Below are positions 52,511 through 60,328 of a stretch of DNA of 64,000 bases, one piece after another. The position numbers were made by a program, and so were the translations under genes. Numbering within the stretch: the first letter of the stretch is position 1; the number at the start of each line of letters is the position of its first letter. The notes beneath the pieces were generated by a model. It made no database searches and had not been told where the DNA came from. It worked only from the letters and a program-made list of their open reading frames with translations. The stretch is from Agromyces sp. Soil535 (lineage in GTDB: Bacteria > Actinomycetota > Actinomycetes > Actinomycetales > Microbacteriaceae): NCBI RefSeq assembly GCF_001428255.1, contig NZ_LMRW01000027.1, positions 62,001 to 126,000 on the forward strand, read 5' to 3'.

Positions 52511-52837
52511 ATGACCGAGCTGCCCGCACCGGTGCGCGAGGCCTTCGCCGCCACCAACGAGGGCGATCTCGCCCGCTTCATCGCGGCCTTCGCCGAGGAC
52601 GGCGTCATCGACGACTGGGGACGCGAGTTCCACGGACACGAGGAGATCGCGGGCTGGAGCCGCCGCGAGTCGATCGGCGTGCAGCAGACGTTCTCGGTCA
52701 CCGACGTGCGCGTGGGGGACGGCGAGGTCGTGGTGATCGCCGACGTCGGTGGTGGCGGGTTCAACGGCCCCTCGACGTTCACGTTCCGGCTCGCGCCCGA
52801 CGGCGCCACCATCGAACGCATGGCGATCACGGCATGA
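52511..52837 (+). CDS. SnoaL/NTF2-like domain protein
   Basis: 108 residues, one NTF2 fold: VREAFAATNEGDLARFIAAF then FAEDGVIDDWGREFHGHEEI, and strands VTDVRVGDGEVVVIADVGG and FTFRLAPDGATIERM. ATG after GTGAGGAGACC. Overlaps the methyltransferase gene by four bases (ATGA), so they are translated together. Reaction unknown. Confidence 0.88.
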   Translation: MTELPAPVREAFAATNEGDLARFIAAFAEDGVIDDWGREFHGHEEIAGWSRRESIGVQQTFSVTDVRVGDGEVVVIADVGGGGFNGPSTFTFRLAPDGATIERMAITA

Positions 52838-53628
52838 ACGACGCACCGGCCACCGCATCGCCGGACGAGCCCGGCCTCGTCGCCGACCCGTCCGACCCCG
52901 AGACGGCGAAGAGCGCCCGCTCGTTCGGGGTCGCGGCATCCGTGTACCACCAGGCCAGGCCCGGCTACCCGGTCGAGGCGATCGCCTGGCTCGTCGGTGA
53001 CGGCGTGCGGGTGCTCGACCTCGGCGCCGGCACCGGCAAGCTCACCGAGGCCCTCGTGGCGCTCGACCTCGATGTGATCGCCGTCGACCCGGTCGAGGAG
53101 ATGCTCGAGGAGCTCGAGGTCGCCGTGCCGGGCGTGCCGCGGATCCTCGGCACGGCGGAGGACATCCCGCTCGAGGAGTCGTCGGTCGACGCGGTGCTCG
53201 CCGGTCAGGCGTGGCACTGGTTCCAGCCCGATCGTGCCATCCCCGAGATCGCGCGCGTACTGCGGCCCGGGGGCGTGCTGGGGCTCGTCTGGAACAGTCG
53301 CGACATCCGTGCCGACTGGCTGCGGCAGGCGGGCGAGATCATGCACGAGCGCCACGACGCGAGCGCCACGTTCGAGAGCTACGTGAAGATCGGCCCGCCG
53401 TTCGGCGAGATCGAGGAGCACACCGTCGAGTGGAGCGAGCGGATGTCGCGCGGGCGGTTCCTCAACCTCGTGCGGTCGCGCAGCTACTTCATCACGGCCA
53501 CCGCGTCGGAGCAGGCTGCGACGATCGCCGCCCTGGAGACACTGCTCGACACGCACCCCGACGTGGCCGGCGCCGAGGAGCTCGCCGTGCCCTACGTCAC
53601 GCGCTGCTTCCGGGCCCGGCTCGACTGA
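52834..53628 (+). CDS. class I SAM-dependent methyltransferase
   Basis: 264 residues with a Rossmann-like methyltransferase fold. Motif I VRVLDLGAGTGKLTEALV, acidic strand VIAVDPVEEMLEELE, AEDIPLEESSVDAVLAGQAW (motif II region), and RVLRPGGVLGLVWNSRD (motif III). The N-terminal SFGVAASVYHQARPGYP is typical of UbiE/Coq5-like small-molecule methyltransferases. Substrate unknown. Convergent with the caspase operon, 34 bases apart. Confidence 0.92.
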   Translation: MNDAPATASPDEPGLVADPSDPETAKSARSFGVAASVYHQARPGYPVEAIAWLVGDGVRVLDLGAGTGKLTEALVALDLDVIAVDPVEEMLEELEVAVPGVPRILGTAEDIPLEESSVDAVLAGQAWHWFQPDRAIPEIARVLRPGGVLGLVWNSRDIRADWLRQAGEIMHERHDASATFESYVKIGPPFGEIEEHTVEWSERMSRGRFLNLVRSRSYFITATASEQAATIAALETLLDTHPDVAGAEELAVPYVTRCFRARLD

Positions 53629-53662: not shown

Positions 53663-55936
53663 TCAGCCCTCCAGGAGGTCCGCGGTCGCACGCAGGATCG
53701 CGACCACAGCAGCCGTCTGGCGGTCGGATGCCGCGATGCGCGCCGGCGCGGCCGCCTTGTCGTCGAGTTGCGCGTCGGGGGCGCCGGGTCCGCCGGGACC
53801 CGCACCGACCGACGCGCTCGTCGTTCCGAGCAGGATGCGACCGCCGAGCACCTCCTCGCCGTGGAACTCCGGCGTCTGCCTGCGGTTCGCGCCGAACACC
53901 TCCACGACCGAGCGCACGAAGTCCCGGTTCGACACGCTGCCGACGCCGGACTCGAGCAGCGGCAGCGCGGCACGGGTGAAGTCGCCCTGCCCGCCCGACT
54001 CCCAGGCCACCTCCGTCGCCCTGCAGGCGCTGAAGAGCACCTCCCTCCGAACCCCCGCGTTCCGCGGCGCGGTCGGCGTGACGATCTCCGACCCCAGCAC
54101 GCTTGCGATCGCGGCGTCGCGCACCGCGTCGGGCTTCGCCGACGCCGCGGCGAGGCCGCGGTCGGCCTTGTACGCCTCCTCGTCGGCGCGGGTCAGTTCG
54201 ACGGCGCGGGGGCGGGCGTCGCCGACAGGCGTCAGGTCGAGGCGCGGCGCCCGGTTCGCCGAGCCGGAGTGGCAGCTGTCGAAGAACGCCGTGAGGTTCA
54301 CGCCCTCGGGAATGACGTCCCAGATGCGTGCGAGGTCGTCGTCGATGATGAGGCGTCCCTGCTTGCGGAAGTCCACCGGGCAGAGAGCCTCGTCCTTGGC
54401 GACGTCGCCGTCCTCCTCGTCGGCGTCGAGGTCGGGCACGAAGGTGCCGTGCCCCGAGTACTGCACGGCGAGCACGTCGCCCGGTGCTGAACCGCTCACG
54501 AGTTCGAGGATGCCGCGGAGGATCGCGTCGCGGGCGGCAGCGGCATCCGTGAGTTCGGTCACGTCGAACCCCGTGTCGCGCAGGGCCTCCGCCCACGCGT
54601 GGGCGTCGGCCACCGCCCCCTGCAGGCGATCGCCCTCGTCGGGGTAGGCGTCGACGCCGATGCACAGCGCCCGGCGCGCACCGCCGATCGCGGCTCCTCC
54701 GTCGGGCGCCCCTCCACCGATGGATCTGGTTCCACCGGCTCCCGTCGGCGGCAGGTCCTCGTACTCCGGCCAGGGCGCCACGGTGCGGCCGTGTCCCTTC
54801 GGGAATGCCGTGATGTCGGTGACGCCCGCCACGCGACGCGCGACGCTCTGCATCGTCGGTGCGTCGTCGTCGAAGTCGCCGTGGGAGGTCGCCGCGCTCG
54901 CCGCCCGCACGCCCACCGCATTCGGCGCGAGCACGAGGTCGCCGTCGGCGGATGCCCCGACGAAGAACTCGGCGAGCTCGGCGTCGCGGGTGAGGAACTT
55001 GGCCATGCCGAGGATCGGGGTCGCCTTCTGCGGCTCGAACGACGCCGACACCAGGTAGAGCAGCGACTTGTTGTAGATACGCAGGCAGGTGTCGGCGCGC
55101 TCGGCTTCGTCGTCCATCGTGAAGATCGCGAGCCGCTCGATCTTGCCGCTCCTCGCGTGCGGCATGAGCAGCCTCGAGAAGGTGTCGACGCGCACCGCGG
55201 GCGCGAGGAGGCTGAGCGACGCGATCGCGGGGACATCCGCCTCGAGCGCCGCAGGCAGCAGGTGCGAGTGGAAGATCGAGCCGGCGCTGTGGCCGACGGC
55301 GTGCACCTCCACCTCGCCGGGGTGATCGGTCATCCACTTCCCGAGGGCGCGTACGAAGTACTGGCCGCCGCCGCCCTTCACGGCTGCCGCGGCGGCGTCG
55401 ACCTTCATGTCGTTCCAGATGCCCCCGCCGCCGAGGAGCCGCGCCGCGACCTCGAGGAACGAGTCCTTCGCCTCGTCCACCCAGCCGCGGCGTCCGCCGG
55501 ATGCCCAGCGGCGCAGCGCATCCCAGAGCGCCGTGCCGAGGCCGGTCTCCCAGACGAAATGGATCGGGTAGACGCCGTTCTCCTTCCACCAGGCGATCTG
55601 CTGCTCGGCGATGCCGAAGCCCGCCTCCTTGTCGACCAGGCCGCCGTGTGCGTAGAGCACGATCGGCACGGGGCCGGGCGCGTGGTCGGCGACGAACGCG
55701 GGCAGGTGGGTCGCGAAGATGGCGTCGACGTCGGCGGCCGTCGTGCGGAACTCGCCGACGCTCCGCGGGTCGGAGGGCGCCCCGGTCGCGAGCTTGCCGT
55801 CCCCGAGGGCGATGACGTGCGGCCGGAGGTCGGCGAGCGCTCCGGCCGAGAGCGTCGGCCCCCCGCGCGACGCCGCGGTGGTCGTGGTCGGCGGCGGCGG
55901 GGGAGCGGAGGGGCTCGGCGGGCGTACGGCGTTCAT
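53663..55936 (-). CDS. alpha/beta-hydrolase-metacaspase fusion protein
   Basis: 757 residues, two domains. Residues about 60-390 look like an alpha/beta hydrolase: oxyanion-type YAHGGL at 96-100, nucleophile elbow GHSAGS with Ser217, and a plausible late His (SHGDFDDD). Residues about 420-705 are a peptidase C14 caspase domain: RALCIGVDAYPDEGDRLQGA, catalytic His496 in YSGHGTF, acidic DEALCPVDF, catalytic Cys555 in FFDSCHSGS, and FSACRATEVAWE. A Pro-rich leader (1-28) and Ala-rich tail flank them. No signal or membrane segment. Starts inside the CHAT gene stop (ATGA). Probably the effector or executioner partner of the CHAT protein; role unknown. Confidence 0.85.
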   Translation of the reverse strand: MNAVRPPSPSAPPPPPTTTTAASRGGPTLSAGALADLRPHVIALGDGKLATGAPSDPRSVGEFRTTAADVDAIFATHLPAFVADHAPGPVPIVLYAHGGLVDKEAGFGIAEQQIAWWKENGVYPIHFVWETGLGTALWDALRRWASGGRRGWVDEAKDSFLEVAARLLGGGGIWNDMKVDAAAAAVKGGGGQYFVRALGKWMTDHPGEVEVHAVGHSAGSIFHSHLLPAALEADVPAIASLSLLAPAVRVDTFSRLLMPHARSGKIERLAIFTMDDEAERADTCLRIYNKSLLYLVSASFEPQKATPILGMAKFLTRDAELAEFFVGASADGDLVLAPNAVGVRAASAATSHGDFDDDAPTMQSVARRVAGVTDITAFPKGHGRTVAPWPEYEDLPPTGAGGTRSIGGGAPDGGAAIGGARRALCIGVDAYPDEGDRLQGAVADAHAWAEALRDTGFDVTELTDAAAARDAILRGILELVSGSAPGDVLAVQYSGHGTFVPDLDADEEDGDVAKDEALCPVDFRKQGRLIIDDDLARIWDVIPEGVNLTAFFDSCHSGSANRAPRLDLTPVGDARPRAVELTRADEEAYKADRGLAAASAKPDAVRDAAIASVLGSEIVTPTAPRNAGVRREVLFSACRATEVAWESGGQGDFTRAALPLLESGVGSVSNRDFVRSVVEVFGANRRQTPEFHGEEVLGGRILLGTTSASVGAGPGGPGAPDAQLDDKAAAPARIAASDRQTAAVVAILRATADLLEG

Positions 55937-58032
55937 GATGGCGGTCCTTCCGGGATCGGCTGGTCGAGGTGGATGTGCGCGTACGGATGCGCGTACACGG
56001 CGTAGGCGAGCTCCGAGAGGTCGGCATCGGCTCTCGCGGCGAGTCGGGCGGCGCGCGCGGCGTCGGCGATCGTCGCGTCGTCGTCGGCGAGCGCGAGGTA
56101 GAACGCTTCCACGAACGTCGAGGCGGGGTCGTCGCCGACCGCCCAGGAGCATCCGACGAACGCGGCGGCGCCGCCGCGCAGGAAGGCCTCGGGGAACCCG
56201 CCGAGCGAGGCCGGCGCCGACGGGAGGCGGCCGATGTCGCACGCGTTCAGGAAGACGAACGGCCCGGTAGCTGCGGCATCCGTCGCCCCTCGGTCGGGCA
56301 GGTCGCGACGCAGCTCGCCGTCGGAGTATCGGGCCGACGGCACGTCCTCGGCCTCGCGGAACGCCGAGAGCAGGAGCTCCTGCGTCGGCGACGCCCCCTC
56401 GCTCCAGCGGCCGTGGCCGGCGAAGTGGAGCAGGTCGAAGCCGTCGTGCATGAGGCCGGCGATGCCGTCGGCGTCGTCGGGATCGATCGACTTCGCGGCG
56501 AACCGGTGCTCGAGGAAGCGCCGTTCCTCCGTGGTGTGGGTGAGCCGCAGGTGCTGCTCGGCGTAGTCGGGACACACGAAGCGCACGCGCTCGGGCGCCA
56601 CGCGCAGGTCGGTCGGATGCGCCGTGTCGTAGACCCAGCGGGTGAGCCCGTAGGAGCTGAGGAAGCGGGGGCGGCCGTCGTCGGCCACGCCGAGGGGCGG
56701 TAGGAGGTGCACGATCTCCCAGGGCACGTCGAGTTCGCCCGAGGTCTGCACGATGAGGCCGTCGAGGCCGTCGGGCTCGGCGTTCCAGAGGAGCTCGAGC
56801 ACCTCGGTGCTGAAGAGGCTTCTGGCCAGGCCCATGCCGAGCGAGCGCAGGCGCCGCAGGCCGTACCTCGCGCGTTCGTCGCGATCGAGGAGGTCGCCGA
56901 GCTCCGATCGGAGGCCGGCGATGCGCCGGTAGGTGCGGGAGATGAATGCCGCCTTGTCGGCGAGGTGGATCGTGCACTCGCGCGCCTCGCCTCCGACCGA
57001 CACGCGGATGCGCAGGGTCGAGTCCGTGCCGACGATCGACTCGTCGACGCGGATGCTCGGGAGCACGACGAGGTCGGGGTCAGGCTCGACGACGTCGGCG
57101 GTCACCTCCGCGGGAAGCGGCTCGGTCGGGGTGCCGACGGCGACGATCTCGGCGGTGAGCCGCAGGGTGGCGAGCGGCAGGTCGGCGTCCTGCCGCACGA
57201 CGAGCGACACCTCGCCGTTGCCGGGGAGCGGCGCGACCAGCCGGAAGCGGTGCTCGGCGACCTCGTGCGCCGAACGCGGCAGGCGTGTGACGATCGTCTC
57301 TGGTTGGTCGCCGACGAGGCGGAACCCGCGCAGGGCGATGGTCACCGTGAGGTCGCGTTCGGCATCGACCTTTATCGACTGCACCGTATGGCTGGTTCCG
57401 GCGGATGCTTCGAGCCGGCGTCGGCTCAGGCGCAGCCTCACGTCGAACTCGGCGTCCACGGCGACGCGCCTGGGCATCTCGGCGTGCACGTGCGCGACGG
57501 CGCGGCGGTCGGGTGCGGGAAACGACGGCGCCGGAGAGGGCGGCGGTGGTGGCGCGGCCGACCGCGTCACCGGGGCCGGGAGGGGCGCGCCCTCCTCGGG
57601 CGGCGCTGCCTCGAGCGCCGGCTCCGCCTCGCGCGGCTCCTCGGGCGCAGACGCCTCGAGTCCGGCTCGCGCGGCGTCGTACCGCCGGGCGAGCTCCTCG
57701 GCCTCAGCCTCGGTCGCGCACTCCACGACCACGGCGAGTGCGCTCCGGGCTTCGAGCCGGAACGGCAGCACCACCTCGAGCGCGTCGGGGTCTTCGCCCA
57801 TCGGGCGGAACGTGCACAGGAGGCCGTCGAGCTGCACGAACACGACCACGCGCCTGGGGTCGACGTCGTCGGCGATGGCCAGCACGAGCACCGGAGCCGC
57901 GCCACCCGTGCCGATGAGCACCGCCCGGGCCAGTTCGCGCCCCGACGACGGCGGCGTCCAGCCGGTGGCATCCGGCGCGCCGATCACGCGCACCGCGCCG
58001 CGCGCACCGAGGATCGCCGACGCGGGCGTCAT
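55933..58032 (-). CDS. CHAT-domain protease with N-terminal accessory domains
   Basis: 699 residues. Region 1-125 is an unrecognised alpha/beta domain, 126-178 a Glu/Ala/Pro linker, about 180-310 a predicted beta-sandwich (SRRRLEASAGTSHTVQSIKV, HRFRLVAPLPGNGEVSLVV), and about 400-690 a CHAT (caspase-like) domain. The catalytic dyad is His540 in LLHFAGHGRW and Cys598 in FVFLNACDIGRL, with GGFPEAFLRGGAAAFVGCSW following, all diagnostic for CHAT. ATG at 58032 is preceded by GGAGGG at seven bases; further upstream codons are unsupported. No TPR repeats seen. First gene of the two-protease operon. Confidence 0.87.
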   Translation of the reverse strand: MTPASAILGARGAVRVIGAPDATGWTPPSSGRELARAVLIGTGGAAPVLVLAIADDVDPRRVVVFVQLDGLLCTFRPMGEDPDALEVVLPFRLEARSALAVVVECATEAEAEELARRYDAARAGLEASAPEEPREAEPALEAAPPEEGAPLPAPVTRSAAPPPPPSPAPSFPAPDRRAVAHVHAEMPRRVAVDAEFDVRLRLSRRRLEASAGTSHTVQSIKVDAERDLTVTIALRGFRLVGDQPETIVTRLPRSAHEVAEHRFRLVAPLPGNGEVSLVVRQDADLPLATLRLTAEIVAVGTPTEPLPAEVTADVVEPDPDLVVLPSIRVDESIVGTDSTLRIRVSVGGEARECTIHLADKAAFISRTYRRIAGLRSELGDLLDRDERARYGLRRLRSLGMGLARSLFSTEVLELLWNAEPDGLDGLIVQTSGELDVPWEIVHLLPPLGVADDGRPRFLSSYGLTRWVYDTAHPTDLRVAPERVRFVCPDYAEQHLRLTHTTEERRFLEHRFAAKSIDPDDADGIAGLMHDGFDLLHFAGHGRWSEGASPTQELLLSAFREAEDVPSARYSDGELRRDLPDRGATDAAATGPFVFLNACDIGRLPSAPASLGGFPEAFLRGGAAAFVGCSWAVGDDPASTFVEAFYLALADDDATIADAARAARLAARADADLSELAYAVYAHPYAHIHLDQPIPEGPPS

Positions 58033-58336
58033 CGCCCGGCCCTCCGCCCGCGGCATCCGCGCGCTCGCCTGCACCTGGCGGACATGGCCGCCTCCCCATC
58101 GAGTGCCACCGTCGCCCGAGCGAATCAGAGCGACGCTCAACATCCTCTGGCCGCAGCATACGACCGCGGCGACGGCGCCCGCCAGCGTGGCCGGCGCAGT
58201 AAGGGTGGTCCCGGATGCCGCGCAGGGAGCGCCCTGAGCAGGCCCGGCGGGTCGCGCTCGACCAGTGCCGGCCACCACCCGCCTGCCCCCGGCATCCGTC
58301 GTCCGACCGCCCGTCGCAACCACGTACGCTGGGCTG
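58033..58336. promoter_or_regulatory. divergent region between the CHAT operon and EamA gene
   Basis: 304 bases. For the CHAT operon a TATGCT box at 58155-58160 (minus strand) would give a leader of about 115 bases. For the EamA gene TACGCT (58325-58330) lies six bases before the GTG. GGGTGGT (58203-58209) and ACCACCC (58274-58280) form a distant inverted repeat that might bind a regulator. No regulator gene is adjacent. Confidence 0.4.
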
Positions 58337-59248
58337 GTGAATCGCGGCCGGGTGTACTTCTTCCTGGCGCTCGCGAACCTGTTCTGGGCTGGCAACTACG
58401 TGTTCGGCGAGATGGTGACGCGTGAGATCTCGCCGATCTCGCTCACGTTCTTCCGCTGGGTGTTCGCGTTCCTGCCGCTGCTCGCGATCGCGCGGCTCAT
58501 CGAGCGGCCGAACTGGCGCACGGCGCTGCGCGAGTGGAGACTGCACCTGCTGCAGTCGCTGCTCGGACTCACCGGGTACACGCTGCTGCTGTACGCCGCC
58601 CTCGGCCTCACCGGCGCGGTGAACGCGGCCGTGATCAGCGCCATCAACCCGGCGACGATCGCGCTCGGCGCGGCGATCTTCCTGCACGAGCGCCTGAATC
58701 GCGTGCAGGCGCTCGGCCTCGTCGTCGCGTTCGTCGGCGTGACCGTCGTGCTCACGGGCGGCGATCTGCCGCTGCTGGTCGAGCAGGGCTTCGGGGTCGG
58801 TGACCTGCTCGTGATCGGGTCGGTGCTCGCGTGGACCGTGTACTCGCTGATCTCGCGGCGGCTCGTGACGCCGCCGATCACCGCCACCTCGGTGCAGGCG
58901 GTGTTCGCCGTGGTCACGATGCTGCCGCTGATCGCCGTCACCGGCGTCTCCCTGCCGACGACCGCGGGCGGCGCCACCGGGCTCGCGTACATCGTGATCT
59001 TCCCATCGATGGCGGGCTACGCGCTCTGGAACATCGGCGCCTCGAGGGTCGGCCCCTCGCGCGCCGGGATCTTCCTCAACCTGCTGCCCGTGTTCGTCGT
59101 GGTCATCGCGCTCCCGTTCGGCGCGACCCTCGAGCTGCCCGCCGTCATCGGCGGCACCCTCGTGATCGCGGGCGTCTACCTGACCCTGCACGTGCGGCGG
59201 TCGAGGCTGGGCCCGGCGGATGCCGCGACCGACCGGCCGGTACGATAG
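58337..59248 (+). CDS. EamA/DMT-family transporter
   Basis: 303 residues, ten membrane helices in two EamA repeats: VYFFLALANLFWAGNYVFGE, ITPISLTFFRW-type segment (EISPISLTFFRWVFAFLPLL), AINPATIALGAAIFLHERLN, and PSRAGIFLNLLPVFVVVIAL. GTG at 58337 with TACGCT six bases upstream, a leaderless arrangement that also excludes the longer in-frame N-terminus. Exporter of unknown metabolite. Confidence 0.9.
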   Translation: MNRGRVYFFLALANLFWAGNYVFGEMVTREISPISLTFFRWVFAFLPLLAIARLIERPNWRTALREWRLHLLQSLLGLTGYTLLLYAALGLTGAVNAAVISAINPATIALGAAIFLHERLNRVQALGLVVAFVGVTVVLTGGDLPLLVEQGFGVGDLLVIGSVLAWTVYSLISRRLVTPPITATSVQAVFAVVTMLPLIAVTGVSLPTTAGGATGLAYIVIFPSMAGYALWNIGASRVGPSRAGIFLNLLPVFVVVIALPFGATLELPAVIGGTLVIAGVYLTLHVRRSRLGPADAATDRPVR

Positions 59249-59254
59249 ACCCCC

Positions 59255-60328
59255 GTGGCTCTCACTATCGGCATCGTCGGCCTGCCCAACGTCGGCAAGT
59301 CAACCCTGTTCAACGCACTCACCAAGAACCAGGTGCTCGCGGCGAACTACCCATTCGCGACGATCGAACCGAACATCGGCGTGGTGAGCCTTCCCGACCC
59401 GCGGCTCGAGACGCTCGCCGGCATCTTCGGCTCCGAGCGCATCCTTCCCGCCACGGTGTCGTTCGTCGACATCGCCGGCATCGTGCGCGGCGCGTCGGAA
59501 GGCGAGGGACTCGGCAACAAGTTCCTGGCGAACATCCGCGAGGCCGACGCCATCGCACAGGTCGTGCGTGGGTTCGACGACGCGGATGTCGTGCACGTCG
59601 AGGGCACGATCGACCCGAAGGCCGACCTGGAGACCATCAACACCGAGTTGATCCTCGCCGACCTCGAGACCCTCGAGCGCGCCATCCCGCGCTTCGAGAA
59701 GGAGGTCAAGGGCAAGAAGCTCGCGCCCGAGGTGCTCGCCGCCGCGAAGGAGGCGCAGGAGCTGCTGCAGAAGGGCACGCCGCTGTCGGCGGCATCCGTC
59801 GACCTCGGGCCGGTCAAGGAGCTCGGCCTGCTGACCGCGAAGCCGTTCATCTACGTCTTCAACGTCGATGAGGCGACGCTCACGGATGCCGCGCGCAAGG
59901 CCGAGCTCGCGGCGCTCGTCGCGCCCGCAGAGGCCGTCTTCCTCGACGCCAAGATCGAGTCGGAGCTCATCGACCTCGACCCCGCGGATGCCGCGGAGCT
60001 GCTCGCGTCGACCGGACAGGACGAGTCGGGCCTCGACCAGCTCGCCCGCATCGGGTTCGACACGCTCGGCCTGCAGACCTACCTCACCGCCGGCCCGAAG
60101 GAGTCGCGCGCGTGGACGATCCACAAGGGCTGGAAGGCCCCGCAGGCCGCGGGCGTCATCCACACGGACTTCGAGCGCGGCTTCATCAAGGCCGAGGTCA
60201 TCTCGTTCGCCGACCTCGTGGCGACCGGCTCGGTGGCCGAGGCGCGTGCCAAGGGCAAGGCCCGCATGGAGGGCAAGGACTACGTCATGCACGACGGCGA
60301 CGTGGTCGAGTTCCGCTTCAACGTCTGA
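59255..60328 (+). CDS. ychF: redox-regulated ATPase YchF
   Basis: 357-residue Obg-family P-loop protein binding ribosomes. Walker A GLPNVGKSTLFNALT, switch FATIEPNIGVV, VDIAGIVRGASEGEGLGNKF, and the altered specificity motif NVDE in YVFNVDEATL, which favours ATP over GTP. C-terminal TGS domain: FERGFIKAEVISFADLVA and DYVMHDGDVVEFRFNV. TACGAT (59241-59246) lies eight bases before the GTG. Seven bases after the transporter gene. Confidence 0.96.
   Translation: MALTIGIVGLPNVGKSTLFNALTKNQVLAANYPFATIEPNIGVVSLPDPRLETLAGIFGSERILPATVSFVDIAGIVRGASEGEGLGNKFLANIREADAIAQVVRGFDDADVVHVEGTIDPKADLETINTELILADLETLERAIPRFEKEVKGKKLAPEVLAAAKEAQELLQKGTPLSAASVDLGPVKELGLLTAKPFIYVFNVDEATLTDAARKAELAALVAPAEAVFLDAKIESELIDLDPADAAELLASTGQDESGLDQLARIGFDTLGLQTYLTAGPKESRAWTIHKGWKAPQAAGVIHTDFERGFIKAEVISFADLVATGSVAEARAKGKARMEGKDYVMHDGDVVEFRFNV

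Follow-up and report, generated by a model that had tools for sequence, protein, structure and literature searches.

The window, a 64,000-nt stretch of a contig from Agromyces sp. Soil535, contains two adjacent genes on the reverse strand, and all features of the pair given below lie on that strand. The first gene (P0001, 699 aa; 55933..58032; an ORF whose start could lie further upstream in the open frame) encodes a CHAT protein, and the second (P0002, 757 aa; 53663..55936) encodes a hydrolase-metacaspase. In the sequence, the stop codon of the former and the start codon of the latter overlap in the four bases ATGA (55933..55936). The first-pass annotation had described this coupled arrangement, together with intact dyads in both products (CHAT His540/Cys598 and metacaspase His496/Cys555). 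Both observations hold: overlap and strand are as described, and the residues are in place and are conserved in paired genes.

P0001 contains a DUF7363 domain at residues 184-292 (57157..57483; Pfam PF24063, E 2e-27) and a CHAT match at residues 528-671 (56020..56451; Pfam PF12770, E 4e-15), the latter scoring 56.3 bits versus a curated cut-off of 24. This profile match and the dyad formed by His540 (codon 56413..56415) and Cys598 (codon 56239..56241) place the protein among the CHAT proteases. A weaker Pfam match to Peptidase_C25 covers residues 521-667 (E 5e-7), and a profile search of the PDB with CHAT returned one relevant match, 8rot_B (E 7e-7). For membrane stretches, the usual mark on the Kyte-Doolittle scale is ~1.6. 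The best 19-residue mean is 1.84 in P0001 (residues 37-55) and 1.51 in P0002; residues 37-55 of P0001 exceed the mark and hence may form a membrane stretch. Csx29 is reportedly the CHAT protease of type III-E CRISPR. The Pfam scan found no TPR family in P0001, which on this measure is not a CHAT protein of the type III-E/TPR kind.

No Pfam family matched the N-terminal half of P0002. A homologue, however, matches the alpha/beta-hydrolase family DUF900 below threshold (17.0 bits versus 20.5), and this weak match, together with the conserved GHSAGS and HGG motifs and His352, leads us to predict a lipase-like alpha/beta hydrolase here (approximately residues 30-385, with His97 in HGG and Ser217 in GHSAGS; 54782..55849). 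Residues 421-692 (53861..54676) match Peptidase_C14 in Pfam (E 2e-19; 70.6 bits versus a cut-off of 21.4). This part is closest by sequence to metacaspases in the PDB (Metacaspase-1, MCA2 and Metacaspase-4, E values down to 5e-20; 8e-32 by profile), and the C14 match and the His496 (54449-54451)/Cys555 (54272-54274) dyad identify it as a metacaspase. Acidic residues D532, D533 and D553 are invariant in the 16 rows of the alignment of hydrolase-metacaspase relatives. Metacaspases are characterised by cleavage after Arg or Lys and by Ca2+ dependence, and a role for acidic residues of this kind is known from other metacaspases. P0002 resembles prokaryotic metacaspases and orthocaspases in its dyad, its C14 family and its closeness to the Metacaspase-1 and MCA2 entries, but differs from them in being fused behind a hydrolase-like domain, in its C-terminal tail and in its coupling to CHAT. 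The model for EACC1-associated caspase systems (NF047832) gave 25.3 bits versus a cut-off of 140, which does not place the pair among those systems.

The linker between hydrolase and metacaspase (residues 388-420; 54677..54775) is variable apart from a small motif, [GASE][ST]R, represented here by T403-R404, with R404 (codon 54725-54727) as a candidate processing site. The motif occurs in 10 of 12 paired rows, compared to 1.2 rows expected by chance when each linker is shuffled; both the pattern and the linker bounds were picked after the rows had been viewed, and the rows are related. It is lacking in two pairs (L040 and L044), in both copies fused at loci with VMAP genes (GSAS there) and in all three CHAT-less genes (L041-L043). 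After a low-complexity linker, the protein ends in a conserved tail (residues 741-757, ..AILRATADLLEG; 53666..53716). This LRATADLLE-like tail is kept in 14 of 16 rows and is missing from both VMAP fusions (L049 and L050); the L158 protein has a similar one.

We searched for relatives of P0002 in 60 Agromyces genomes, in 299 genomes of the family and, by profile, in 197 genomes of the class. The counts are lower bounds, based on the best three candidates per genome in the family search and the best five in the class profile search. In Agromyces, 15 of 60 genomes gave a match, with at least 12 approximately full-length places in 10 of the 60. Among the matches listed, all 12 full-length places lie beside a CHAT relative or form one polypeptide with it. 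Nine are two-gene pairs: the window, L040, L046, L047, L048, L051, L052, L053 and L054, the last counted as such with both genes in one frame and a single TGA between them. A second copy in the window's own genome (L039) is one CHAT-hydrolase-metacaspase polypeptide of 1497 aa with both dyads intact, and the VMAP loci L049 and L050 hold fusions in reverse order.

Beyond the genus, a full-length pair with genes overlapping by 4 bases was found in another genus of the family (L044, genome G045). In a further genus (L158, genome G581), a CHAT gene is followed by a P0002 relative, with both dyads intact as read by eye. Three genomes of one other genus (L041-L043) carry an intact full-length hydrolase-metacaspase and no CHAT match in the 20 kb fetched. 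A search for DUF7363 in 296 class genomes placed only G000, G079 and G581 above the cut-off among the matches listed, and the profile search of 197 class genomes gave no further full-length P0002 match among those listed. For genus, family and G581 combined, CHAT adjoins or is fused to 14 of the 17 full-length relatives among the matches listed, a count in which sampling favours adjacency, as G581 was found via DUF7363. Excluding G581, the figure is 13 of 16 (matches listed); including a relative on a cyanobacterial plasmid, it is 14 of 18.

The first-pass annotation had named two outcomes that would speak against a linked pair, namely homologues that are rarely adjacent and catalytic Cys/His residues that are not conserved. 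Neither came true, given the 14 of 17 above and both dyads intact in all 12 pairs outside the VMAP loci (11 aligned, plus L158). At the level of sequence comparison, these data support the view that CHAT and hydrolase-metacaspase constitute a conserved, linked two-protease unit. As for the proteolytic relay that had been proposed for the pair, the linked unit stands, on the grounds of adjacency, natural fusion and dyads, and action of CHAT on its partner is compatible with the data only.

Metacaspase His496 and Cys555 are each kept in 15 of 16 rows, the exceptions being L050, with Gln for His, and L049, with Ser for Cys. In the hydrolase, His97 is Gln only in these same two copies, and Ser217 and His352 are kept in 16 of 16 rows. 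CHAT Cys598 shows a different pattern. Of 19 rows, the 11 that have it are the aligned pairs outside the VMAP loci, and it is absent from L049, L050, the extra gene of L052, L109, L113, L110, L111 and L114. DUF7363 was found at 20 places in 17 of 60 Agromyces genomes, 13 with the partner (including the two VMAP fusions and a truncated extra gene next to an intact pair) and seven without. The extra gene (L052:12641-13876(+)) has DUF7363 and lacks the CHAT catalytic part. All seven partnerless places adjoin YchF, i.e. the same site as the window. L109 has Ser in place of the catalytic Cys and L113 has Thr; in L110, L111 and L114 the catalytic part is missing, and L115 retains little beyond DUF7363. 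With L112 cut by a contig end and thus unreadable, the catalytic Cys is absent in six of the six readable partnerless genes of CHAT type at this site. The CHAT tree requires at least three changes of Cys state. Independent pairs comparing Cys with partner gave three for, none against and one without difference (P 0.25), or two, none and one without the VMAP copies (P 0.5). A tie between Cys retention and partner is hence suggestive, and not significant once phylogeny is taken into account.

Several related arrangements were seen. The CHAT-less gene at L041:5311-12963(-) has a stand-alone C14 gene and an SPFH/flotillin gene as neighbours, and so do those at L042 and L043; the families were assigned by profile only in L041. 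On a plasmid of Kovacikia minuta, L082:9224-12208(+) encodes a 994-aa protein with Amidase_2, hydrolase and metacaspase parts and a similar tail, and no CHAT match was present in the 22 kb fetched around it. A stand-alone hydrolase relative adjoins a separate C14 gene and a third gene at L055:4994-9072(-) and L057:9839-14077(+), the C14 neighbour being profile-tested in L055 only. In a separate Agromyces operon (L058:5759-12387(-)), a CHAT gene comes before one that encodes C14 and a PGAP1/DUF7379-type hydrolase; a second CHAT-like gene, degenerate-looking by eye, precedes both. At L083:5170-7128(+) and L084:5035-6972(+), the hydrolase domain sits behind a papain-type C1 peptidase (Peptidase_C1 profile-tested in L083 only), and thus pairs with unrelated cysteine proteases. 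These C1-peptidase-hydrolase proteins of Rhizobiales and Burkholderiales plasmids are like P0002 in joining the same hydrolase domain to a cysteine protease, but the protease family is unrelated, the domain order is opposite and no match to P0001 was found in the stretches fetched.

Comparison with relatives shows the window pair to be a single unit, which is probably a protease-triggered switch for self-damage or immunity. Tentatively, and somewhat short of an even chance, we favour a two-protein proteolytic switch that runs from CHAT to metacaspase to hydrolase. The CHAT protein, with its N-terminal part, Pro-rich linker, DUF7363 and CHAT domain, would be the upstream, signal-dependent protease. 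P0002 would be a latent executioner in which a short linker ties a lipase-like alpha/beta hydrolase to a metacaspase. Once switched on, CHAT would activate its partner, and either the metacaspase (expected to cut after Arg or Lys) or CHAT itself would cut the linker near Arg404, thereby releasing the hydrolase, whose attack on a lipid or ester would bring about growth arrest or death. Prokaryotic caspase homologues are described in the available part of one source as cutting after positively charged residues (PMC6426788). The pairing, the fusion and the conserved active sites are observed, and the order of events, the cut site, the substrate, the hydrolase as toxic part and the role in defence are inferred. 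The 12 of 12 full-length partners adjacent or fused in Agromyces, and the pairs in two other genera (L044 and L158), argue for such a switch. So do the 1497-aa fusion, the CHAT Cys that is present in pairs and absent without the partner, the linker motif, the L058 operon and the alpha/beta-hydrolase gene beside VMAP caspase domains. Against it are three genomes in which a hydrolase-metacaspase persists and the 20 kb fetched gave no CHAT match, which indicate that CHAT is not always needed. Further points against it are the Cys pattern losing significance under phylogeny, the dead CHAT copy next to an intact pair at L052, the choice of linker pattern after viewing the rows, and the lack of a system-specific PADLOC match and of a defence island.

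These three genomes, as well as the cyanobacterial relative behind Amidase_2, around which 22 kb gave no CHAT match, suggest that the hydrolase-metacaspase can act first or alone. The order could accordingly be reverse or mutual: the metacaspase, activated by Ca2+ or another signal, would act first and process CHAT in its Pro-rich linker (~130-180), or the two would form a joint complex that acts on a third protein, with the hydrolase independent. We consider this unlikely. At the YchF site the catalytic Cys is kept only with a partner, a pattern that fits CHAT acting on or for its partner better than the reverse.

VMAP-C was found in two of 60 Agromyces genomes, exactly those with L049 (G328) and L050 (G311). 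The window's genome gave no VMAP-C match, and the window pair is therefore not a VMAP ternary system. P0005 of L049 scored 46.5 bits versus 27 for VMAP-C and also has C14; the genome of L050 scored 43.7 bits versus 27. In both loci, the module is one protein of ~1930 aa in effector position. In L049 this protein comprises SAV_2336_NTERM (344.8 bits versus 200), C14, DUF7363 and CHAT; alignment places the hydrolase part between SAV_2336_NTERM and C14. Upstream lie genes for an AAA-type protein (P0004) and for a C14-VMAP-C protein, as well as one that matches Abhydrolase_6. P0004 carries WRIYRG and PPWRVF and matched AAA-type models and bpMoxR below cut-offs only. VMAP ternary systems are described, in the part of the source available, as having the order VMAP-MoxR-vWA, with WRIYRG and PPWRVF in the MoxR-type protein (PMC7159879). 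In our reading the SAV_2336 part would be the vWA component; if so, the gene order of L049 fits VMAP, MoxR, vWA. The L050 locus was judged by its resemblance to L049.

In both VMAP-fused copies, a residue of active-site type is replaced in each of the three enzyme domains; with Ser217 and His352 kept, loss of hydrolase activity is presumed. Could these copies be pseudogenes? This is disfavoured by the lack of stops and by dN/dS between L049 and L050 (0.27 for CHAT and 0.23 for hydrolase-metacaspase), compared to 0.24-0.43 for active pairs (four comparisons); judged by these ratios, the fused module is under purifying selection. L049 and L050 lost the metacaspase site through different substitutions, which suggests repeated inactivation. 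In the tree, the hydrolase-metacaspase part of the fused copies is sister to the active copy of G328 (99/98), a genome with both a fused copy and an active pair whose hydrolase-metacaspase is the closest relative of the fused ones. G311 has a fused copy, and no active pair was found there in the genus search. The CHAT parts of the VMAP loci lie elsewhere on a long branch, with L051 and L052 (86/91), and a single capture is therefore not shown. GC content is 0.67 and 0.66 for the module segments, 0.58-0.62 for the VMAP genes and 0.75 for the active copy. A separate immune-type system has captured copies of the module that are apparently inactive.

The first-pass annotation considered the surroundings of the window pair compatible with a defence or stress island. 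This was not borne out, and a defence island was rejected: the flanks are conserved chromosome, also present in genomes without the pair. On the forward strand, a methyltransferase-like gene (52834..53628), a conserved neighbour rather than part of the module, lies on one side, and an EamA-type permease gene (58265..59248), likewise a conserved neighbour, and a YchF-type GTPase gene (59255..60328) lie on the other; all these flanking genes were named by eye. YchF gave a match in 60 of 60 Agromyces genomes. In the window, and likewise in eight other genomes, the pair occupies the site flanked by methyltransferase and EamA/YchF (EamA not in all). We fetched YchF neighbourhoods from 40 genomes that lack the pair here, leaving out four further genomes with contig ends or fragmentation, and found no CHAT or hydrolase-metacaspase match. 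In 21 of the 40, at most 200 bp separated the methyltransferase from EamA or YchF; other material of 0.8-4.1 kb lay between in 13, and no methyltransferase match was found in six. In eight of the 40, ORFs of glycosyltransferase, TetR, ArsR or lipoprotein type were noted by eye from their first residues. PADLOC gave no system-specific match for P0001 and only a generic caspase model for P0002, and the matches of ten proteins from other copies or from look-alike loci were weak or generic. A phage or plasmid origin of the pair is also disfavoured: P0002 matched one phage record and 144 plasmid records, only one of the latter over 80% of its length, and P0001 matched six plasmid records, none over 80%.

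A setting in conserved chromosome, shared by the second copy (L039, with a methyltransferase gene on one side and PolyA_pol/HD and MurJ genes on the other), would suit regulated housekeeping or developmental proteolysis, in stress, lysis or turnover of cell wall or membrane and unrelated to parasites, as would the SPFH/flotillin neighbour of the CHAT-less L041. The patchy presence of the module, with a full-length partner in at least 10 of 60 Agromyces genomes, and its effector position in both VMAP loci found argue against this explanation, which we regard as quite unlikely.

Among the partnerless genes, dN/dS is 0.18-0.28 for L110, L111 and L114, and it is 0.40 for the extra gene of L052 versus L110; these values indicate that the catalytically dead forms are kept. 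That CHAT-type genes without a catalytic part persist at the same site at such ratios, and that the dead copy of L052 (P0008) adjoins an intact pair as if dead forms had a use of their own, would agree with a CHAT that mainly binds and restrains the hydrolase-metacaspase, antitoxin-like, with proteolysis secondary, but this is very doubtful, since all 12 paired CHATs outside the VMAP loci keep a dyad that a pure scaffold would not need.

Two elements of the proposed switch from CHAT to metacaspase to hydrolase are known already, as far as the available text of the sources goes: the pairing of caspase with alpha/beta hydrolase (PMC7159879) and the activation of a neighbouring effector by CHAT (PMC12881547). 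The VMAP ternary systems of Kaur et al. 2020, where the VMAP caspase domain is stated always to have a neighbouring alpha/beta-hydrolase gene, resemble the window pair in this pairing (PMC7159879). Inactive enzyme copies also occur in their effector position, where L049 carries the module. They differ from the window pair, whose genome gave no VMAP-C match and in which hydrolase and caspase form one protein and CHAT is added; the main text of that paper contains no occurrence of CHAT (PMC7159879). A fungal TPR-bearing CHAT that activates gasdermin in a two-gene cluster is similar in placing CHAT beside its would-be target (PMC12881547, available part). Relative to this protein and to Csx29 (PMC10028731, available part), P0001 has no TPR match and its would-be target is itself a protease-hydrolase. 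In the open-licence PMC subset, we found neither the union of CHAT with caspase and hydrolase nor its capture as a VMAP effector, and DUF7363 was unmentioned in the literature searched there.

Inactive effector copies in VMAP systems have been proposed, in the part of the source available, to stand in as decoys for an active form that the same cell carries (PMC7159879). Applied here, the pair would serve the bacterium in immunity or suicide and be a target of parasite inhibitors, and in two Agromyces strains VMAP systems would guard it, with the reversed, triple-mutant module serving as an integrated decoy that senses such an inhibitor; we regard this as possible, if on the unlikely side. The integrated decoys of plant immune receptors are a parallel. 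The captured, seemingly inactive and selectively kept copies are a concrete case in which to test the published decoy proposal for VMAP effectors. The pair itself brings two caspase-clan branches into a single operon, and one of them is tied to a putative lipase-like enzyme. If the proposed switch is correct, two genes would suffice for a bacterial initiator/executioner cascade, and so small a system could be rebuilt in a test tube.
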